A DNA stretch of 22,432 nucleotides from positions 1 through 22,432 of IMG/VR virus record IMGVR_UViG_3300002835_001194. The stretch is one strand, 5' to 3'. The notes under the pieces are model-generated. The model saw nothing but the letters and a program-made list of their open reading frames with translations. It was not told the DNA's origin and searched no databases. The position numbers were made by a program, and so were the translations under genes. Origin of the DNA: a virus. This document shows, piece by piece, positions 89 to 19,967 of the stretch (within the stretch, counting starts at the first letter, position 1; every line of letters starts with the position of its first letter).

Positions 89-1306
89 TTATTTTTTAGA
101 CACTGAAAAGTAATATTTGTAAACATGTCCTTCTAATGGGTTTTTTATCAATAACTTTTGTCCACTTGGTAATGAATTTAATTTTTCTTTTACTTTATTC
201 CAATCCAAATCAGGAAACCAAGAACCAAACATTTCTAAAAACTTATTCCATCCAACTCGGCTTTGGGTAAAACCACTTCCCCCATTTCTTTCACTATGTT
301 TGTAAAATGTATAAGTTTCATTATCATCATCACTTAAAGTATTTTTTATAAAATTTAAAATAAAATCCTTATAATTGTTGGCAATATCTTTAGAAACTTG
401 ATTAATTATTTTATTACCTTCTTCATCTGACAAATGTAATATAGCGGACTCTATAATCTCATAAGAAGTATTATCACAAACCGTTTTGATTAATTCATCA
501 ACATTTTTAAAGTCAAGGAAAAAATCCATTGTGAATTTTTTCAAATAATAAAGAACTCTATCCTCACTATAATTTATTCTACGTTTTATCGTTGAAGGTA
601 GGTTCATTTCTTCTCTCACTATTCTTCTTATTTGCTCTTGTAGTTTTGTACTATCCCATGGGTATTTGACATAAGAACCAGTAAAATGGCTTCTAACTGT
701 TAATGTATATGCCTTTAAACCTAAAAATTTACTAAGAGTTGACAACACTTTTTCTTTATTTGAAATCCTAACGTCAATATCACTATCGTGTGAATAATAT
801 AACTTTATCAAATAACTCCCCTCTGTGTTATCCCAAGAAATATCATATTTAACTAACTGAGGTAATTGAAATTTTTCCACAATGCGACCCATCATTTCAA
901 TTATTTTTGGTGAATAATCAGGGTCATTTATTTCTTCTTCTTCCTCACCCAAAACTTTTTTGAAATTTTTAGATAATTTACTAAATTTGATTAACTTTAC
1001 ATTAACTGACTTAAAATTATTTTTATTTGCTTTTTGTATTCTGTGGTGACCATCAAGAATATATTTAATTGAATTATCATCATTAACTAATACAAGGACA
1101 GGATATTTTAAATTTGTCTTATCAATCTTACTCATCTCTTCAGGATTATCTCCGTGAAGAGCATGTTTCATAAGTTTTTTAGTTAACATTTTGGTTACAG
1201 GAATATCTTTAGTAATCCTTAATAATTGTTTTAAAGTAACCGTATCTTTACCTCGTGTCCATTTATCCTCCAAACTCTCTTGAATCATATTATTTTCTTC
1301 CATCAT
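89..1306 (-). CDS. ParB/sulfiredoxin-fold-like protein with a second C-terminal module
   Basis: A 405-aa protein that appears to have at least two parts. Residues about 20-120 contain DGHHR (85-89) after a beta-rich stretch (YPVLVLVNDD), the layout of ParB/sulfiredoxin-like nucleotide-binding domains, which use a [DE]GxHR motif. A Glu-rich linker (121-126) follows. Residues about 221-243 carry QIRRIVREE and a basic tail, nearly the same as the N-terminus of the truncated gene at 1-83, and a helical unknown region completes the protein. This looks like a fusion of a ParB-like domain with a module that elsewhere starts its own protein. ATG codons at 1306, 1303 and 1288 are all possible starts; the first was kept. 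DNA binding or nuclease activity is inferred only from the fold resemblance. Confidence 0.7.
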   Translation of the reverse strand: MMEENNMIQESLEDKWTRGKDTVTLKQLLRITKDIPVTKMLTKKLMKHALHGDNPEEMSKIDKTNLKYPVLVLVNDDNSIKYILDGHHRIQKANKNNFKSVNVKLIKFSKLSKNFKKVLGEEEEEINDPDYSPKIIEMMGRIVEKFQLPQLVKYDISWDNTEGSYLIKLYYSHDSDIDVRISNKEKVLSTLSKFLGLKAYTLTVRSHFTGSYVKYPWDSTKLQEQIRRIVREEMNLPSTIKRRINYSEDRVLYYLKKFTMDFFLDFKNVDELIKTVCDNTSYEIIESAILHLSDEEGNKIINQVSKDIANNYKDFILNFIKNTLSDDDNETYTFYKHSERNGGSGFTQSRVGWNKFLEMFGSWFPDLDWNKVKEKLNSLPSGQKLLIKNPLEGHVYKYYFSVSKK

Positions 1307-2590: not shown

Positions 2591-3424
2591 TTATACTAAT
2601 TCTAATTGTTCTTGTTTCATTAACTCGTATGCTCTAGCCATCCTTGTCATTCCAATTCCTCCACCGAATCTTGGGAAGAAGTCAAACTTTAAGAATTCCT
2701 CAAGTTCCGCCTCAACTCTTTCTTTTCCAAATAGTTCAAACAATTTGTTCGCATATCCTCCGTTCTCAATAGTATAGAACATTTCTTTCATCGTATCAAC
2801 ATCACATGAACGTTCTGCCGAACCAATTGTTTCTTGACCATAAAGAATGACATCAACCTTGTTGAAGATTTCACCATCTTTGTTTTTCATATTCCAAAAC
2901 GGGTTTGTTCTTCTTGGGAAATGTTGAAGGGAAACCACGGGACCAATCTCTTTCCACATTCTTGATTCATGTTCATCTTCCAAGATTGTTGCATCATCAT
3001 ATTCATCACACATATCTTCATAATCAACTTCAGCCATCTCATCTGCAAATCCAAGATATGCCAATAGGTCACCTTCTAATTTGATAAGTTCTTTCATTCC
3101 ACCTTTTGATTCAAACTCAAACATTGGGAAGATTAGTTCGTGTCTTCCTGGTATTGGGTCTTTCTCTTCTCTGTATGATGTTGAAATACAGAACACACCA
3201 TTCCATTCAGGGTTCATTAGTAGTTCGTGTTCCAACCACATCTGACCTGTTTGTGGTAATGGCCAAATTAATCCTCCATATTCAAATGTTTTAACTGAAT
3301 GCGGATTCTCACACGCCGCCAAGATAGATAATCTTGATTGTGTTGGGACTTCAATAAATCCCTTTTCCAAGAAGAAATTTCTCATCTTCTGTACTAGTTC
3401 GTTGTAGATTTTTGTGTTTTTCAT
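2591..3424 (-). CDS. Core-only class II Asn/Asp-tRNA synthetase-like enzyme (possible asparagine synthetase)
   Basis: A 277-aa protein with the catalytic core of class II aminoacyl-tRNA synthetases of the Asp/Asn/Lys group. Motif 2 is visible at residues 83-105: YREE, then RHE, then FPMFEFE. GQETIGSAERS (196-206) matches the G-x-E-I-x-G-x-x-R segment of Asp/AsnRS. Motif 3 is FGGGIGMTRM (253-262) with the conserved Arg at 261. There is no N-terminal OB-fold anticodon-binding domain, since true AspRS/AsnRS are over 400 aa. The length suits the archaeal AsnRS-related asparagine synthetase, which makes asparagine from aspartate, ATP and ammonia. It could instead aminoacylate or modify another molecule. 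It is a single gene between two terminators. The synthetase-like fold is well supported; the substrate is inferred. Confidence 0.8.
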   Translation of the reverse strand: MKNTKIYNELVQKMRNFFLEKGFIEVPTQSRLSILAACENPHSVKTFEYGGLIWPLPQTGQMWLEHELLMNPEWNGVFCISTSYREEKDPIPGRHELIFPMFEFESKGGMKELIKLEGDLLAYLGFADEMAEVDYEDMCDEYDDATILEDEHESRMWKEIGPVVSLQHFPRRTNPFWNMKNKDGEIFNKVDVILYGQETIGSAERSCDVDTMKEMFYTIENGGYANKLFELFGKERVEAELEEFLKFDFFPRFGGGIGMTRMARAYELMKQEQLELV

Positions 3425-4734: not shown

Positions 4735-5238
4735 ATGAAATTAATTAATTCACTTTTTTATCTTATTAATGAAACAAAACTTGACGTAGATAAAACGTTA
4801 CCATTAATTACAATATTTCAAATAGATAATAATTTAATTCGATTATATTCAACAATACACCAATCAAAAGAGCGACACGGCTCAGAAACTTTAAAACAAA
4901 TTAGAAAAAGATACCACGATAACGAACTAAGAAATCCTGTAAATTTTGACAGAGTAGGAGTTCCAAATCATATTATTAAAGATATCTTTGAAAAAGATTT
5001 TGAACAAATAAAAAAAGCATTTGAATTTTTATCAACTAAAAATAATGACAAGGTTTTAATTGTAAAAAATATTGGAGAAGAATATGATTTAGATGAGAAT
5101 ATGAAATATGTTGAAATTTTAATAGCATCTTCTGATTTAAAAAAGTATACCATAATAACATCTTTGTTTTCAAAAGATGGTGATATGTTTAAAACATTTA
5201 ATTACAATAAAAAATCCCCGAGATTTAAGTTACGTTAA
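4735..5238 (+). CDS. Unknown protein with a possible cleavable leader
   Basis: A 167-aa hydrophilic protein of no family I recognise. It starts MKLINSLFYLINETK, which ends in I-N-E and resembles the short (I/L)-x-E leaders on other proteins in the window and on T4 internal proteins. The middle (about 41-75) contains HQSKERHG and a basic RKRYHD stretch, vaguely like small RNase toxins, but no catalytic set can be assigned. The leader reads ACATATTTATTAAT before the ATG. It is downstream of the sulfotransferase gene and converges on the metallopeptidase gene, 7 nt away with no visible terminator. Confidence 0.65.
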   Translation: MKLINSLFYLINETKLDVDKTLPLITIFQIDNNLIRLYSTIHQSKERHGSETLKQIRKRYHDNELRNPVNFDRVGVPNHIIKDIFEKDFEQIKKAFEFLSTKNNDKVLIVKNIGEEYDLDENMKYVEILIASSDLKKYTIITSLFSKDGDMFKTFNYNKKSPRFKLR

Positions 5239-14309: not shown

Positions 14310-14507
14310 TTATTCTTTAATGTCGTTGGGCTTGATTATAGACACCACACGACCATCTTCATTAACTTTAAGATACAACTCGTCATCCTTATTTTCAATT
14401 GAACCTTGACCCTTTAATTGAGCCCAATACTTACTCCTAACCAACTCACCAAGAGCAGAATTATTTGAGTTGTCTTTAATCTCTTCTTCAGTTATAATAA
14501 TTTTCAT
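14310..14507 (-). CDS. Small unknown protein
   Basis: A 65-aa acidic protein starting MKIIITEEEIKDN, with a possible beta hairpin at the end (LYLKVNEDGRVVSIIKP). The N-terminus is faintly like the 'KIIxLTExxL' leaders found elsewhere in the window but lacks the (I/L)-x-E end, so I do not group it with them. It lies 34 nt upstream of the membrane-protein/transglycosylase pair and may be the first gene of that transcript. It begins about 58 nt after the terminator at 14566-14596. Confidence 0.55.
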   Translation of the reverse strand: MKIIITEEEIKDNSNNSALGELVRSKYWAQLKGQGSIENKDDELYLKVNEDGRVVSIIKPNDIKE

Positions 14508-16122: not shown

Positions 16123-17511
16123 TTCTGTAATCTTTTGTTTTAAAACCTTCTCAAACTCCACGGCAACCATTTTAATGAACTTAACCATCGGAGAATCCTC
16201 AGCATTAGAATCATATTTATATTGTCCTGAAGGAGGTCTTTTACCTCTTCCAAGATAATTTAAACCAGATATGTTTGTAATACATTTATGTCCACCTGAA
16301 TTGGCTTGAATTAAATCCCAAGCATTAATTCCAATTTTATCTAACATCTCTTTATGTTCCTCAGATAAATCAGTAAAAGGAGTTTCCATCATATCTTGAA
16401 TATGATTTAAAACTCTATCACCATTTTCCATAGTTGTGAACTTATCACCATATAGTGCCTTAAAGTCTTTAAAAGTAAATCCAACACTCTCAGGTCCAAC
16501 ACTGGTCTCACTAACCCACTTGATAGTTGATAATGGAATTGTTTTATCTTTTAATTGTGATTCCCATTTACCAATAACTTCTTGAGCAATTTCACCTAAG
16601 TTAACACCTTTTAATTCTCTTTCTTTGTTGAAAGGATTACAAGATGCTTGAACCAATCCCATTGGCCAAGCCATAATAAAGAAATCCGCTTCAGGATTAT
16701 TTCTAAACGCAGTGTACCTATCATATGAACCTGGTTTAAACATTGAACCACCACCATATTGAAATATAATACCATCATTAACTCTTGGAAAATCTTTCAT
16801 CTTTTCCGCATAGTCTTCAGCATTTTTTTGTAATTCTTCAGGTTTAGCAGCATTTGATTTTTTCATCCAATCTTTAATATTATTTAAAATTGAAAGTAAT
16901 GAAGGTTCAGAATCCATAACTAAACCTTCTAAAAATCCTTTTTTGTTTTTAAACGCCAATAATAATTTGTTAATAACAAACCCTAATAACATTTTATTTT
17001 TTTGTAATGATTTTTCTTTATCAAATCTATACAAATAATTAACAACTTCTTTAGGTGTAATATCGTGTTTGGCAAAATCAGCCGAATCAACAGTACTGAT
17101 TAATAAAATATCTGATGATGGGAATAATTCTTTTGGAGATACTACTTGAGATATTGTTTCAACATTTGAACGAGATGCTCTAAATGATGTTGATTTCGTA
17201 TCTTCAGCACCTGCCTGTCTATCGTGATGGTCAGTATGAATAACAAACATCGGTTTACCGTGAGCAAAATCTACAAGAACCGGCATAACGTCACCACTAG
17301 CATCATTCTTTTTAATAGCAAATTCCTTATCACCATATTGTATGATATGACTACCAACAACTTTAATACCATTATCTTCAAGGTATTTCTTCATTGCTAT
17401 AGCAGTAGTAACACCATCCAAATCTTGATGGAAATAAATTTCAGCCTTTGGATATCTTTTAGCAAGAGCATTAATCTCTCTTAATCCCGATTCTTTTAGT
17501 ATTCTTTTCAC
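16114..17511 (-). CDS. DHH-family phosphoesterase
   Basis: A 465-aa protein with the metal-binding motifs of the DHH superfamily (RecJ, NrnA, cyclic dinucleotide esterases). FHQDLDG (27-33) is motif I (HxDxDG), VLVDFAHG (78-85) is motif II and IHTDHHDRQ (91-99) is motif III with the DHH. A later SGGHKCITNISG resembles the GGGH substrate motif of the DHHA1 domain. It may hydrolyse short oligonucleotides, ssDNA or pyrophosphate-type substrates. The start codon is GTG at 17511. The N-terminus MKRILKESG has an L-x-E, so it could belong to the leader-bearing set. Its place at the end of the putative capsid-protein block, 11 nt after the peptidoglycan-binding gene, fits that weakly. Confidence 0.82.
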   Translation of the reverse strand: MKRILKESGLREINALAKRYPKAEIYFHQDLDGVTTAIAMKKYLEDNGIKVVGSHIIQYGDKEFAIKKNDASGDVMPVLVDFAHGKPMFVIHTDHHDRQAGAEDTKSTSFRASRSNVETISQVVSPKELFPSSDILLISTVDSADFAKHDITPKEVVNYLYRFDKEKSLQKNKMLLGFVINKLLLAFKNKKGFLEGLVMDSEPSLLSILNNIKDWMKKSNAAKPEELQKNAEDYAEKMKDFPRVNDGIIFQYGGGSMFKPGSYDRYTAFRNNPEADFFIMAWPMGLVQASCNPFNKERELKGVNLGEIAQEVIGKWESQLKDKTIPLSTIKWVSETSVGPESVGFTFKDFKALYGDKFTTMENGDRVLNHIQDMMETPFTDLSEEHKEMLDKIGINAWDLIQANSGGHKCITNISGLNYLGRGKRPPSGQYKYDSNAEDSPMVKFIKMVAVEFEKVLKQKITESK

Positions 17512-17522
17512 CTATTATTTAG

Positions 17523-17870
17523 TTAGAATAATTTACCAATAAAAGTTAATGCTTTGTCAATTATATCTTGGTCCAATCCTAACTTATGTAAAGCATTATA
17601 TGTTTGTGGTCCAGGTTTTCCATCTGGGTTAATTTTTTCAAATTTTTGAAATATCTCAACAGCTTTAGATGTTAGACTTCCCCATTTAGAATCCACAGGA
17701 ATTTGAAATACTTTACCACCAGCCTTAATGTTTTTCATTTTAAAATAACTATTAAGAGCATTTTGAAGTTCAAATACTTCTTGTCCACTCATTTGACTTT
17801 GTTCCGCAATAACTCTTTTAACAATATTTGTTAAATCATTTTCAGTTAATTTTATAATTTTCTTTGACAT
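17523..17870 (-). CDS. Peptidoglycan-binding protein with a capsid-targeting-like leader
   Basis: A 115-aa protein. Residues 30-98 form a PG_binding_1 domain: VFELQNALNSYF, then VDSKWGSLTSKAVEIFQK (59-76) and NPDGKPGPQTYNAL (81-94), the typical three-helix 'VDGxxGxxTxxAVxxFQ' pattern. It has no attached enzymatic domain. The N-terminus KIIKLTENDLTNIVKRVIAE (4-23) is a charged amphipathic leader ending I-A-E, the same type as T4 internal-protein leaders cut by the prohead protease; cleavage after Glu23 would free the PG-binding domain. It is separated by one base from the upstream DUF5856-like gene. Placement in the virion and ejection with DNA are inferred. Confidence 0.85.
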   Translation of the reverse strand: MSKKIIKLTENDLTNIVKRVIAEQSQMSGQEVFELQNALNSYFKMKNIKAGGKVFQIPVDSKWGSLTSKAVEIFQKFEKINPDGKPGPQTYNALHKLGLDQDIIDKALTFIGKLF

Positions 17871-17871
17871 A

Positions 17872-18243
17872 TTAATACTTTAATGTTAATAAGTATTTTA
17901 ATTTATTTGTCTCACTTAAAATTTCATCTCTGATGTTTAATAAGTCAGTGTCGTATTTGGAATCTAAAACATCAGTCATTGAAACTAAGAATTCAGTAAT
18001 ACCATCTAAAAACTCTTGCATATTAATAGTTTCAATATTTTGAAACATAATAGCAAACTCAGGTTGAAACTCAGGTCTACCATATTTACCCATAAGAGCC
18101 TCAGTAAAAGTATCAATAAGGTCATCTAAACTCTCGTAAAAAGCACCGTAAGCTCTATGTTTTGCATCTCCAAAAGTAGTCCAATGAAGGAATCTAAATT
18201 GGTTTTGTATTTGTACTAATTTTAATATTAATTCTTCTTTCAT
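17872..18243 (-). CDS. DUF5856/Dps-like helical protein
   Basis: A 123-aa, all-helical protein. LVQIQNQFRFLHWTTFGDAKHRAYGAFYESLDDLIDTFTEALMGKYG contains the 'LHWxT...H.A...(F/L)Y..L.DLID.F.E' signature of DUF5856. That pattern is widespread in T4-like and other large phages and resembles Dps/ferritin four-helix bundles. Family function is unknown; DNA binding or a virion role is possible. Unlike its neighbours it has no (I/L)-x-E leader. It is 2 nt downstream of one block gene and 1 nt upstream of the next. Confidence 0.8.
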   Translation of the reverse strand: MKEELILKLVQIQNQFRFLHWTTFGDAKHRAYGAFYESLDDLIDTFTEALMGKYGRPEFQPEFAIMFQNIETINMQEFLDGITEFLVSMTDVLDSKYDTDLLNIRDEILSETNKLKYLLTLKY

Positions 18244-18245
18244 AA

Positions 18246-18983
18246 TTATTGTGGTTTAAGTTGATTTACTCCTCGATTTACCGTAGGTGCAGGATTTTGA
18301 GCCGATTGTAATGGTGTTCCAACTTTTTGTATTGGAGCTGTGAATGCCGAATTAGGTTTTTCTGACTTAATTTTTTCTAATTGTGATTTCATAAAAGGAG
18401 ATTCTTTTTCATTTTCAACTGAAGTATTTAAAGATTGAAGATATTCTTTACCATATAAAGTCCAAGCTTTTTTAGTTCTAAAACCAAAATTACCATAACC
18501 AGCTCCTTTGTTTAAAACACCATTAGTAAAACCTGTTGCCCAATTTTTAGCATTTGTATCTAACCAGTCTTGAAATAATTTAACACCTTCAATATTTTTT
18601 AATTCACTTGGTATCGGAGTTTTTTGGTTAACCTTATCACCTAACGTAGAAACATTCGTTTTAAATTCAGGGTCATTACAAGTATAATTTTGAACAATTT
18701 TCATAACAATATTCCATTTTTTACCATTATTATAATAATTGTAATTATCTATTTGATAAAATTCAGAACCTTTAGGTGTTTTACCTTTTTTTGCCTTTGG
18801 GTGTTTAACAACACAAGGATATTTTGACCAATCAGTTGTTGTATTTGTTGTACTTCCTATAGATGGTGCATACACAGATGGTGTGGTATTAACCGCTGCG
18901 GCTTGTTCAGAGATAACAATACCTCTTTTATAGTTCAATAAAAACTTCATTGAACTTATTTCTTCATTAATTTGTTTTTTCAT
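18246..18983 (-). CDS. Unknown virion-type protein with a capsid-targeting-like leader
   Basis: A 245-aa protein. The N-terminus, MKKQINEEISSMKFL followed by NYKRGIVISEQ, ends in I-S-E (24-26); an Ala/Thr/Ser-rich linker then leads to a domain with Cys-containing strands (WSKYPCVVKHPKAK, QNYTCNDPEF) and a long hydrophilic tail rich in Asn, Pro and Gln. The two Cys could pair in an oxidising setting. No family recognised. Tight spacing (2 nt and 9 nt) places it in the same four-gene block, and the leader suggests it is packaged in the capsid and trimmed. Confidence 0.7.
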   Translation of the reverse strand: MKKQINEEISSMKFLLNYKRGIVISEQAAAVNTTPSVYAPSIGSTTNTTTDWSKYPCVVKHPKAKKGKTPKGSEFYQIDNYNYYNNGKKWNIVMKIVQNYTCNDPEFKTNVSTLGDKVNQKTPIPSELKNIEGVKLFQDWLDTNAKNWATGFTNGVLNKGAGYGNFGFRTKKAWTLYGKEYLQSLNTSVENEKESPFMKSQLEKIKSEKPNSAFTAPIQKVGTPLQSAQNPAPTVNRGVNQLKPQ

Positions 18984-18992
18984 ATTTTTTTT

Positions 18993-19967
18993 TTAGTTAA
19001 ATGATAATGCATCGTTTAATCCTTTTCCAAAAGTTTTAGATAAAAAGTTTTGGATTTGGTCACTTCCTTGTGATGAGTTTGAATTATTTTGTGATGTTTG
19101 TTGTTGTGATGAATTATTTTGATTTACAACCGTGTCTTCTTTTTCATAATTTTGAGCAATATAATCACTAGTTTTTGGGTCTTCGGCAATTTTTTTTCTG
19201 AATTCTTCGTCTTCAGACATTTTTCTTTCAAAAGTTGTTAAAGATGGTATACCAAAATATGCTAATAAATTATTAGCGCCAATAAATTTTCTAAAAGAAT
19301 TTCTTCTATCTTGTCTAGCACTAACATTTATCCACCATTTTTTGATACCTTTTTCAGGTATAACATTATTTTTTGCAAAGTATTTTGACAATGTTTGTTT
19401 TTGATAATAATCTTTTAACCCTGTTTTAAATAAACCACCAGATATAACTTCTTTACTTCCAGCCTTTATTCCTGAAACAGCTTTACTACCACCAGCAATC
19501 ATATTTAACCCCTCACTTAATTTTGAACCTAAACTAGAATTTACTTTACTTATACTTTGAACTGTTTTTTCAACCACAGGTGCTTTAACATACCCAGCTA
19601 AACTACTATACTTTTTAGCTATCTGAGGATTTTTTGCCAAATAGTCCGTTAATGTTTTACCTCCAGCTTTCATAGCTGTAGAAGCTTCTTTACTCCCTTT
19701 GAATAATCTAATAATTGGTTTAGCAATAAAATCTCCAACAGTTGGGATTAAAGCAATTAACATTAACGCAGCATATAATTTTTCACCTTTATATAGATAA
19801 TAACATATTAAAGCTATGTCAGCAACTTCACCAATTACAGGAACAAATCCCGCAGCCATTAAAATGTTTTCAAAACTAAACAAAGATTCGTTTAGTGTTT
19901 CTTTTTCATTTAAAACTTCACTAGTTATTATGTCTAATTGTCTTTCTGTTAAAATTATTGACGGCAT
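18993..19967 (-). CDS. Membrane-inserting protein with a leader; candidate ejection protein
   Basis: A 324-aa protein. Residues 1-21 (IILTERQLDIITSEVLNE) form a leader ending L-N-E. Two hydrophobic helices follow (about 34-58 and 63-85), with GFVPVIGEVADIA and ALIPTVGDFIA; the 'xPVxGDxxD' look recurs in pore-forming and toxin-associated membrane domains. A basic, mostly helical region comes next, and the tail (about 277-310) is Asn/Gln/Ser-rich, low complexity. It would be the first gene of the minus-strand block, and a palindromic TATTTATAAATA lies 8 nt before its ATG. Passage through the host envelope during DNA entry is a reasonable guess; nothing shows it directly. Confidence 0.7.
   Translation of the reverse strand: MPSIILTERQLDIITSEVLNEKETLNESLFSFENILMAAGFVPVIGEVADIALICYYLYKGEKLYAALMLIALIPTVGDFIAKPIIRLFKGSKEASTAMKAGGKTLTDYLAKNPQIAKKYSSLAGYVKAPVVEKTVQSISKVNSSLGSKLSEGLNMIAGGSKAVSGIKAGSKEVISGGLFKTGLKDYYQKQTLSKYFAKNNVIPEKGIKKWWINVSARQDRRNSFRKFIGANNLLAYFGIPSLTTFERKMSEDEEFRKKIAEDPKTSDYIAQNYEKEDTVVNQNNSSQQQTSQNNSNSSQGSDQIQNFLSKTFGKGLNDALSFN

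Follow-up and report, generated by a model that had tools for sequence, protein, structure and literature searches.

Why should the proteins of one compact phage gene block, otherwise unrelated, begin alike? The question arises in IMG/VR virus record IMGVR_UViG_3300002835_001194, of which a stretch of 22,432 bases, probably a fragment, was analysed (hereafter the window). Four genes lie on its minus strand at 17523-19967, three encoding proteins with a short charged leader and one (DUF5856) encoding a protein without. The initial annotation of this block had noted that the leaders end in I-A-E, I-S-E and L-N-E, and had proposed that they direct their proteins into the capsid and are cut off there, as in phage T4. 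All three endings are present: the 115-aa peptidoglycan-binding protein begins MSKKIIKLTENDLTNIVKRVIAE↓Q (IAE↓Q, the arrow marking the predicted cut), the 245-aa protein begins MKKQINEEISSMKFLLNYKRGIVISE↓Q (ISE↓Q), and the 324-aa protein begins MPSIILTERQLDIITSEVLNE↓K...TLNE↓S, with LNE↓K followed six residues on by LNE↓S. Judged from sequence comparison, the leader system is real, widespread and modular. We consider it likely that large T4-like phages use these leaders as exchangeable capsid-targeting propeptides, which form a much enlarged, cassette-swapping relative of the T4 capsid-targeting sequence (CTS).

The leaders first noticed on three of the four block genes are shared beyond chance. 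When 700 proteins (150 aa or longer) encoded by the window and five related contigs were compared, 106 pairs were similar in residues 1-35 alone, against 6, 6 and 5 pairs in residues 36-70, 71-105 and 106-140. The bare (L/I)xE motif is weakly enriched at N-termini, occurring at residues 5-20 in 28% of window genes and in 8-30% in later segments; the signal sits in the whole leader. Because the bare motif is too common, whole-leader profiles were used. Its commonness is what one would expect if the resemblance were homology among small paralogues, or chance in AT-rich, Lys/Glu/Ile-rich sequence, but the excess of pairs similar at the N-terminus only, and the 63 unrelated families into which the bodies behind type-1 leaders fall (see below), make such an origin scarcely credible.

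Type-1 leaders were collected with a DNA pattern matching the core LTExDLxx(hydrophobic)(V/I)KRV(hydrophobic), in which P3, two residues before the final Glu, was allowed to be I, L, V, M or F and from which that Glu was omitted. At least 120 stretches matched in viral contigs, and 81 loci, drawn from the window and L001-L130, yielded 93 unique leaders. The omitted Glu stands two residues past the core in 92 of the 93, with Gly in the remaining one (L087); 89 have I or L at P3, and in 88 the distance between the core and the nearest ATG is 5-7 residues. Conservation ends after Glu+1, with no kept position beyond, and the 89 bodies whose length permitted comparison belong to 63 unrelated families (single linkage at E < 0.01). 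The residue following the Glu (P1') is Q in 47 leaders, N in 11, S in 9, D in 8, E in 7 and another residue in 11 (including A in 2 and G in 2). The amphipathic character ascribed to the leaders by the initial annotation is found in the type-1 set (mean hydrophobic moment 0.53 versus 0.29 when shuffled, with 6% of shuffles attaining the mean; 71 distinct) and is absent from the window leaders taken one at a time. Type-1 leaders also stand at the protein C-terminus, in L122:8926-9147 and L087. Type-2-like motifs were observed at the C-terminus in L040:4015-5319, L214:12057-13199 and L129:9776-10426.

Could the conserved element be DNA instead of peptide? A mobile start cassette or a late-gene ribosome-binding context, encoding a functionless peptide, would account for cassette exchange at a single locus and for the A-rich context common to the starts of leader genes. 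In 90 leaders, codon identity is 0.82 at codon positions 1 and 2 and 0.57 at position 3 (downstream, 0.30 and 0.34); since position 3 has diverged and positions 1 and 2 are kept, the peptide is conserved and not the DNA. Codons of invariant residues also vary, and one body can carry leader types of different sequence in each other's place. It is therefore highly improbable that the shared start is a DNA or translation-initiation element.

Clustering of proteins whose starts are similar and whose bodies are unrelated suggested five leader types: LTExDLxxIVKRVIxEQ (type 1), around LLNYxRGxVISEQ (type 2), IITExQYxxL (type 3), QExIRKVLREE (type 4) and ITEEEKxRILxMH...LxEQ (type 5). Searched against 2159 unique proteins, the five profiles gave 309 N-terminal matches and 9 elsewhere, and the 309 leader proteins carry bodies of 171 families (same linkage threshold). 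The scan of relatives proposed in the initial annotation has thus borne out exchangeable leaders whose final Glu is almost invariant. Leader genes number 31 and 43 (independent E-value, i-E, < 0.02) in two records, of 294 and 296 kb respectively.

Exchange is apparent at the locus of the DHH-family gene beside the block. Among the best 80 of 597 DHH-protein loci, 70 have a gene from one of six body families (47, 10, 8, 2, 2 and 1 loci) upstream of the DHH gene; all 70 of these genes carry a leader, and two of the six families have peptidoglycan-binding domains (PF01471 and LysM). In G015, a related record whose core neighbours are collinear with the window, leader genes are absent at the corresponding place. 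Homologous bodies with different leader types form 54 pairs, some of them weak or partial and four families plain (this count and the DHH-locus count use the same five profiles). The bodies of L013 (type 1) and L022 (type 5) are 83% identical, and those of L038 (type 1) and L262 (type 3) are 80% identical. Reciprocal best hits between G015 and a second record, G017, were found for 3/31 leader genes versus 140/325 other genes, and in the reverse direction for 5/43 versus 138/310; the leader genes are accessory.

A collection of 84,980 prokaryote genomes contained only 4 matching stretches, versus the at least 120 in viral contigs. Two of the 4 lie on one phage-like contig filed under Prochlorococcus, one is non-N-terminal and without the Glu, and the fourth is an N-terminal start on a Prevotellaceae contig (see below). 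This scarcity, together with our reading of the leader as charged and devoid of a hydrophobic signal core, makes it very unlikely that the leaders act as export or maturation signals of host type, cut by a bacterial peptidase, attractive as that would be for the identifiable cargo that acts on peptidoglycan, outside the cytoplasm. The 64-kb contig filed as Prochlorococcus (L332, L333), with several genes that bear leaders, is probably from a phage.

The boundary Glu was followed in the family of the 324-aa window protein, for which 37 of 52 unique homologues found were aligned. The aligned Glu is invariant (37/37), though leader length ranges from 21 to 59 residues. P3 is L in 19, I in 15 and V in 3; P1' is S in 15, A in 14, E in 5, V in 2 and G in 1, and in the two with V (L093 and L270) the Glu adjacent to the body is, as read from the alignment, a second one downstream. 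Because the aligned Glu before the body is E27, the window protein is predicted to be cut at E27↓S28, and the L-N-E ending initially proposed for it, at E21, is not the one its family conserves. The contrast then drawn with T4, which favours Ala, Ser or Gly at P1', is correct for type 1 (Q in 47/93) and for the most part does not extend to this family, with one of those three in 30/37 and S or A in 29/37. Seven homologues of the 245-aa protein show strong leader conservation as far as ISEQ, after which a hypervariable stretch begins. The protein encoded upstream of the presumed terminase gene begins MKTYKKRINE↓APIEYDGPERM in G015, MGNLTEKELDRIVNKIINE↓APIDYDGPERM in G017 and MSKKVREQIEYDGPERM in a third record, G007; its conserved part starts at the predicted cut.

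A gp21-like prohead protease had been expected in relatives of the window. G007, which was picked up because one of its proteins shares only the leader (residues 1-25) with a window protein, encodes both gp21 (E 4.1e-25) and gp23. Among 26 long leader-bearing records (51-296 kb), gp21 is present in 15, exactly the 15 with a T4 portal, and gp23 is over its cut-off in 13, all of which have gp21. Among 30 shorter leader-bearing records (14-59 kb), gp21 is present in 5, or 20/56 overall; these 56 are part of the list of at least 120 stretches, and long records favour T4-like phages. The gp21-positive records include G015, the one collinear with the window. The HK97-type capsid protein (PF05065) was found in 0/56, unlike in the HK97/S78 system. 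The window has no match to an S77 or S78 (PF04586) protease, S78 having been sought in the window only. The N-terminal segment of the capsid protein, about 60 residues, ends L-(I/L)-(N/T)-E↓A/S in 9/9 capsid sequences printed (...FLINE↓A, ...HLINE↓A/S and ...ALLTE↓A). In the scaffold, we read (L/V)xE↓Q after a conserved N-terminal region in 11/13, which suggests that Gln after Glu may be normal in these phages. In LR756508, a 484-kb phage, the gp21 gene seems to contain an intein (L248:4499-6220; LAGLIDADG_3 over its cut-off, Intein_splicing below).

Capsid-targeting leaders as a kind are already known from T4. In the passages of PMC9026906 drawn on here, T4 internal proteins (IPs) carry core-targeting propeptides of 10-19 residues, for IPIII the first ten residues are enough for targeting, cutting occurs after L/I-x-E (at a Glu-Ala bond in gp22), Alt is processed at its C-terminus too, and the authors suggest that the CTS may bring various proteins into T4-like heads. 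T4 IPII and IPIII start MKTYQEFIAE↓A. The leaders described here resemble those of IPI-IPIII and Alt in being short N-terminal propeptides on unrelated proteins, in ending (L/I)xE and in their variable cargo, and leader-bearing relatives, not the window, encode the gp21-type S77 protease, gp20 portal and gp23 capsid. They differ in forming several families of about 13-59 residues, in number (31 and 43 genes in two records versus a handful in T4), in the type-1 P1', mostly Gln, in leader-type swaps on one body and in internal leaders within fusions. The same passages describe many cleaved head propeptides and a distant gp21 homologue in phiKZ and SPN3US (gp175/gp245); unlike the S/A-x-E motif of phiKZ, P3 is here L, I or V in 37/37, and the heads are T4-type, with gp20 and gp23 (PMC9026906). 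Prediction of head-packaged, injected proteins by comparative genomics is also the approach taken for polyvalent and MuF-linked effectors; in passages of that work the prediction proceeds from fusion to, or neighbourhood with, head genes (PMC9503650), whereas ours proceeds from an exchangeable leader and a protease site. A literature search by title and abstract opening, with subscription papers mostly outside it, returned nothing on such leaders in metagenomic or Bacteroidota phages.

Modular leaders, a boundary Glu and cassette exchange are observed, as are the right protease and capsid site in relatives. Core binding, loading, cutting and delivery we infer, as follows. The leader would bind the prohead core (scaffold) during head assembly, enclosing the attached protein. 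A gp21-type prohead protease would then cut after the Glu of (L/I/V)-x-E. This would free the mature protein within the head, to be delivered with the DNA into the next cell.

The leader might instead remain uncut, as an exchangeable docking helix that takes its protein to a membrane site, the baseplate or an infection compartment, the Glu serving in a helix cap or binding surface. Leader/body swaps prove modularity alone, and a preference for Q over A or S at the type-1 P1' would suit such a helix, but conservation would not be expected to halt as sharply at Glu+1 as it does, nor the Glu to stay invariant in the 324-aa protein family while leader length varies. Cutting would free little from the C-terminal leaders of L122 and L087; the processing of T4 Alt at its C-terminus, as given in passages of PMC9026906, nevertheless makes C-terminal copies compatible with cutting. 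Given also gp21 in 15/15 leader-bearing records with a portal, we regard a docking helix as unlikely.

Several observations weigh against capsid-targeting propeptides. In the DHH clade to which the window belongs, gp21 was found in 0/10 contigs (sizes up to 138 kb), and it is absent from another record, G001 (145.5 kb); a T4 portal was found neither in G001 nor in the four of those ten contigs that were tested. Since the portal is also missing, and since G001 has only scattered matches to the 50-165 kb part of G015, where head and tail genes lie, the head module probably lies simply outside these contigs. The expected protease is present in portal-holding relatives and G007 and was not found in the window, G001 or the ten contigs of the closest clade. 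The capsid-targeting interpretation is partly supported, by leaders, protease and capsid (L/I)xE site in relatives, with no head module found in the window or on the contigs of its closest clade. Overall, 36/56 leader-bearing records are without gp21, and in the 11 of these searched for a portal none was found; in G009, which has no gp21, gp23 matched weakly, below its cut-off. The 15/26 for gp21 comes from leader-bearing records alone. Type-1 P1' is mostly Q, unlike the A/S of the capsid site. The scaffold, considered as a look-alike of the leaders, gave no leader-profile match, which leaves a core-binding motif common to both without support. Of 376 leader-bearing proteins, 90 have homologues of the body on which no leader was called; the first 40 of these 90 are a mixture of sub-threshold leaders and true absences. 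The type 2-5 profiles were built from hand-picked seeds, and all types except 5 include a window start. A type-1-like start, MKQLIILTESDLHNIVKRVIDE (L335:165-773), occurs on a Prevotellaceae contig where the neighbouring genes are chromosomal. The three window leaders are singly not amphipathic (p 0.17, 0.48 and 0.37), and AlphaFold2 models of the 324-aa and 245-aa window proteins were unusable (mean pLDDT 43.4 and 47.5).

If the leaders are capsid-targeting propeptides, sequence alone would predict which proteins of a phage accompany its DNA into the host, for a large, mostly uncultured group in which leader-bearing genes are almost all unannotated. Virion cargo would become directly testable by proteomics, and natural leader-cargo pairs would suggest themselves for protein delivery via phage heads. 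More tentatively, and at somewhat less than an even chance, the leaders could amount to a general cargo-loading code, with interchangeable leader families, tens of swappable cargo cassettes per genome and fusions with internal leaders, by which a good part of the accessory genome of unknown function would arrive with the virion and not be made after infection.

To survey the cargo, 148 leader families (the longest of the 171) were compared with 148 length-matched leaderless controls, of which 70 share a locus with their partner. In Pfam, 13 families were matched among the leader families versus 67 among the controls. Six of the 13 are cell-wall families (LysM, two phage lysozyme families, M23, PG_binding_1 and YkuD); the 25 of 67 control families listed include IMPDH, HSP70, portal, PhoH, methylase, epimerase and also M23. 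For PHROG, 25 of the 42 entries for the 148 leader families were listed. The largest recognisable cargo group binds or cuts peptidoglycan, a wall theme resting on few proteins, and most leader-bearing bodies are of unknown kind. A PADLOC scan of leader proteins returned seven families with one weak match each. The 245-aa window protein was considered as a second peptidoglycan-binding domain, for which there was no support (profile comparison of A5 with A6, probability 0.5%). In LR756508, consecutive genes after gp23 (L248:25715-31591) have short MK(F/L)KxLLxE-like starts and YRG/YRA motifs; ADP-ribosyltransferase activity, suggested by the motif, is not claimed for the YRG-motif proteins, seven of which had no convincing Pfam match.

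The leader-bearing phages are probably large, mostly uncultured phages of Bacteroidota. Their leader genes start in an A-rich context with no evident Shine-Dalgarno motif, as fits Bacteroidota. In G007 and G015, a gene for ribosomal protein S21 is situated between portal and protease and runs on the reverse strand, an arrangement also present in freshwater phages assigned to Bacteroidetes hosts (PMC9723584); the abstract and passages of that account make no mention of leaders. The top isolate by capsid covered length times identity is Flavobacterium phage immuto (vB_FspM_immuto_2-6A; 38.5% over 68%, 285 bits), in which gp20, gp23 and a prohead protease are annotated; the capsid of Microcystis phage Mel-JY01 matched at 42.3% over 55% (297 bits). 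The five profiles match weakly in immuto, and leader-like starts can be seen by eye, for example MRTLQEKYNAIQEGKFSKEHFIAE↓A between portal and protease. In LR756508, about 18 genes around gp21/gp23 have, by eye, type-4-like starts. In tblastn searches of named phages, the 324-aa window protein gave no match and a bare leader one weak match.

Features of the window bearing on the leader system, with coordinates and supporting matches.
Feature	Coordinates	Strand	Support
Leader-bearing peptidoglycan-binding protein, 115 aa	17523..17870	-	PF01471 E 3.9e-12; type-1 profile match (its leader is itself a seed of that profile)
Type-1 leader, residues 1-23, predicted cut E23↓Q24	17802..17870	-	Type-1 set
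DUF5856 / starvation-inducible-regulator-like core protein, no leader	17872..18243	-	PF19174 E 2.6e-16, phrog_858 E 4.5e-17
Leader-bearing protein, unknown fold, 245 aa	18246..18983	-	7-member alignment
Type-2 leader, residues 1-26, predicted cut E26↓Q27	18906..18983	-	7 homologues
Leader-bearing protein, hydrophobic N-terminal half, 324 aa	18993..19967	-	37-member alignment
Type-3 leader, residues 1-27, predicted cut E27↓S28	19887..19967	-	Aligned Glu 37/37
Type-4 leader MNLKKQIRRIIREE, open reading frame (ORF) truncated at contig end	42..83	-	Hand-picked seed of type-4 profile
Internal type-4 leader copy KLQEQIRRIVREE, residues 221-233, domain junction of ORF 89-1306	608..646	-	
Small protein with MKIIITEEE start, marginal type 3 (weak)	14310..14507	-	Profile i-E 0.089
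DHH-family core protein, VKRILKESG start (possibly a minimal leader), GTG start codon	16114..17511	-	PF01368 E 3.8e-4, under its cut-off

Neither the 245-aa protein (no family at E 0.1) nor the 324-aa protein (no family above cut-off) could be placed in Pfam or PHROG. Three further starts had initially been grouped with those of the block. The one at 1-83 is a leader on an ORF truncated at the contig end, although of a different type (type 4). For MKLINSLFYLINE, at 4735, no homologue was found among the six genomes or contigs compared, and its inclusion is unsupported. The start tentatively included as MKRILKE, at 17511, belongs to the DHH-family protein, in which (I/L)xE(S/T)G(L/I)R is kept in 73/73 homologous ORFs holding the marker used; it is possibly a minimal leader, though the protein is core.

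ORF 89-1306 of the window and L218:424-1944 are fusion proteins that keep a leader at an internal domain junction. By eye, the body after the internal copy in the former resembles one behind the N-terminal leader in the latter. The layout of L218:424-1944 is leader-body-leader-body, as if it were a processed polyprotein. Elsewhere in the window, the product of 2591-3424 is 80% identical to a G015 protein and resembles what we take to be a class II aminoacyl-tRNA synthetase core.

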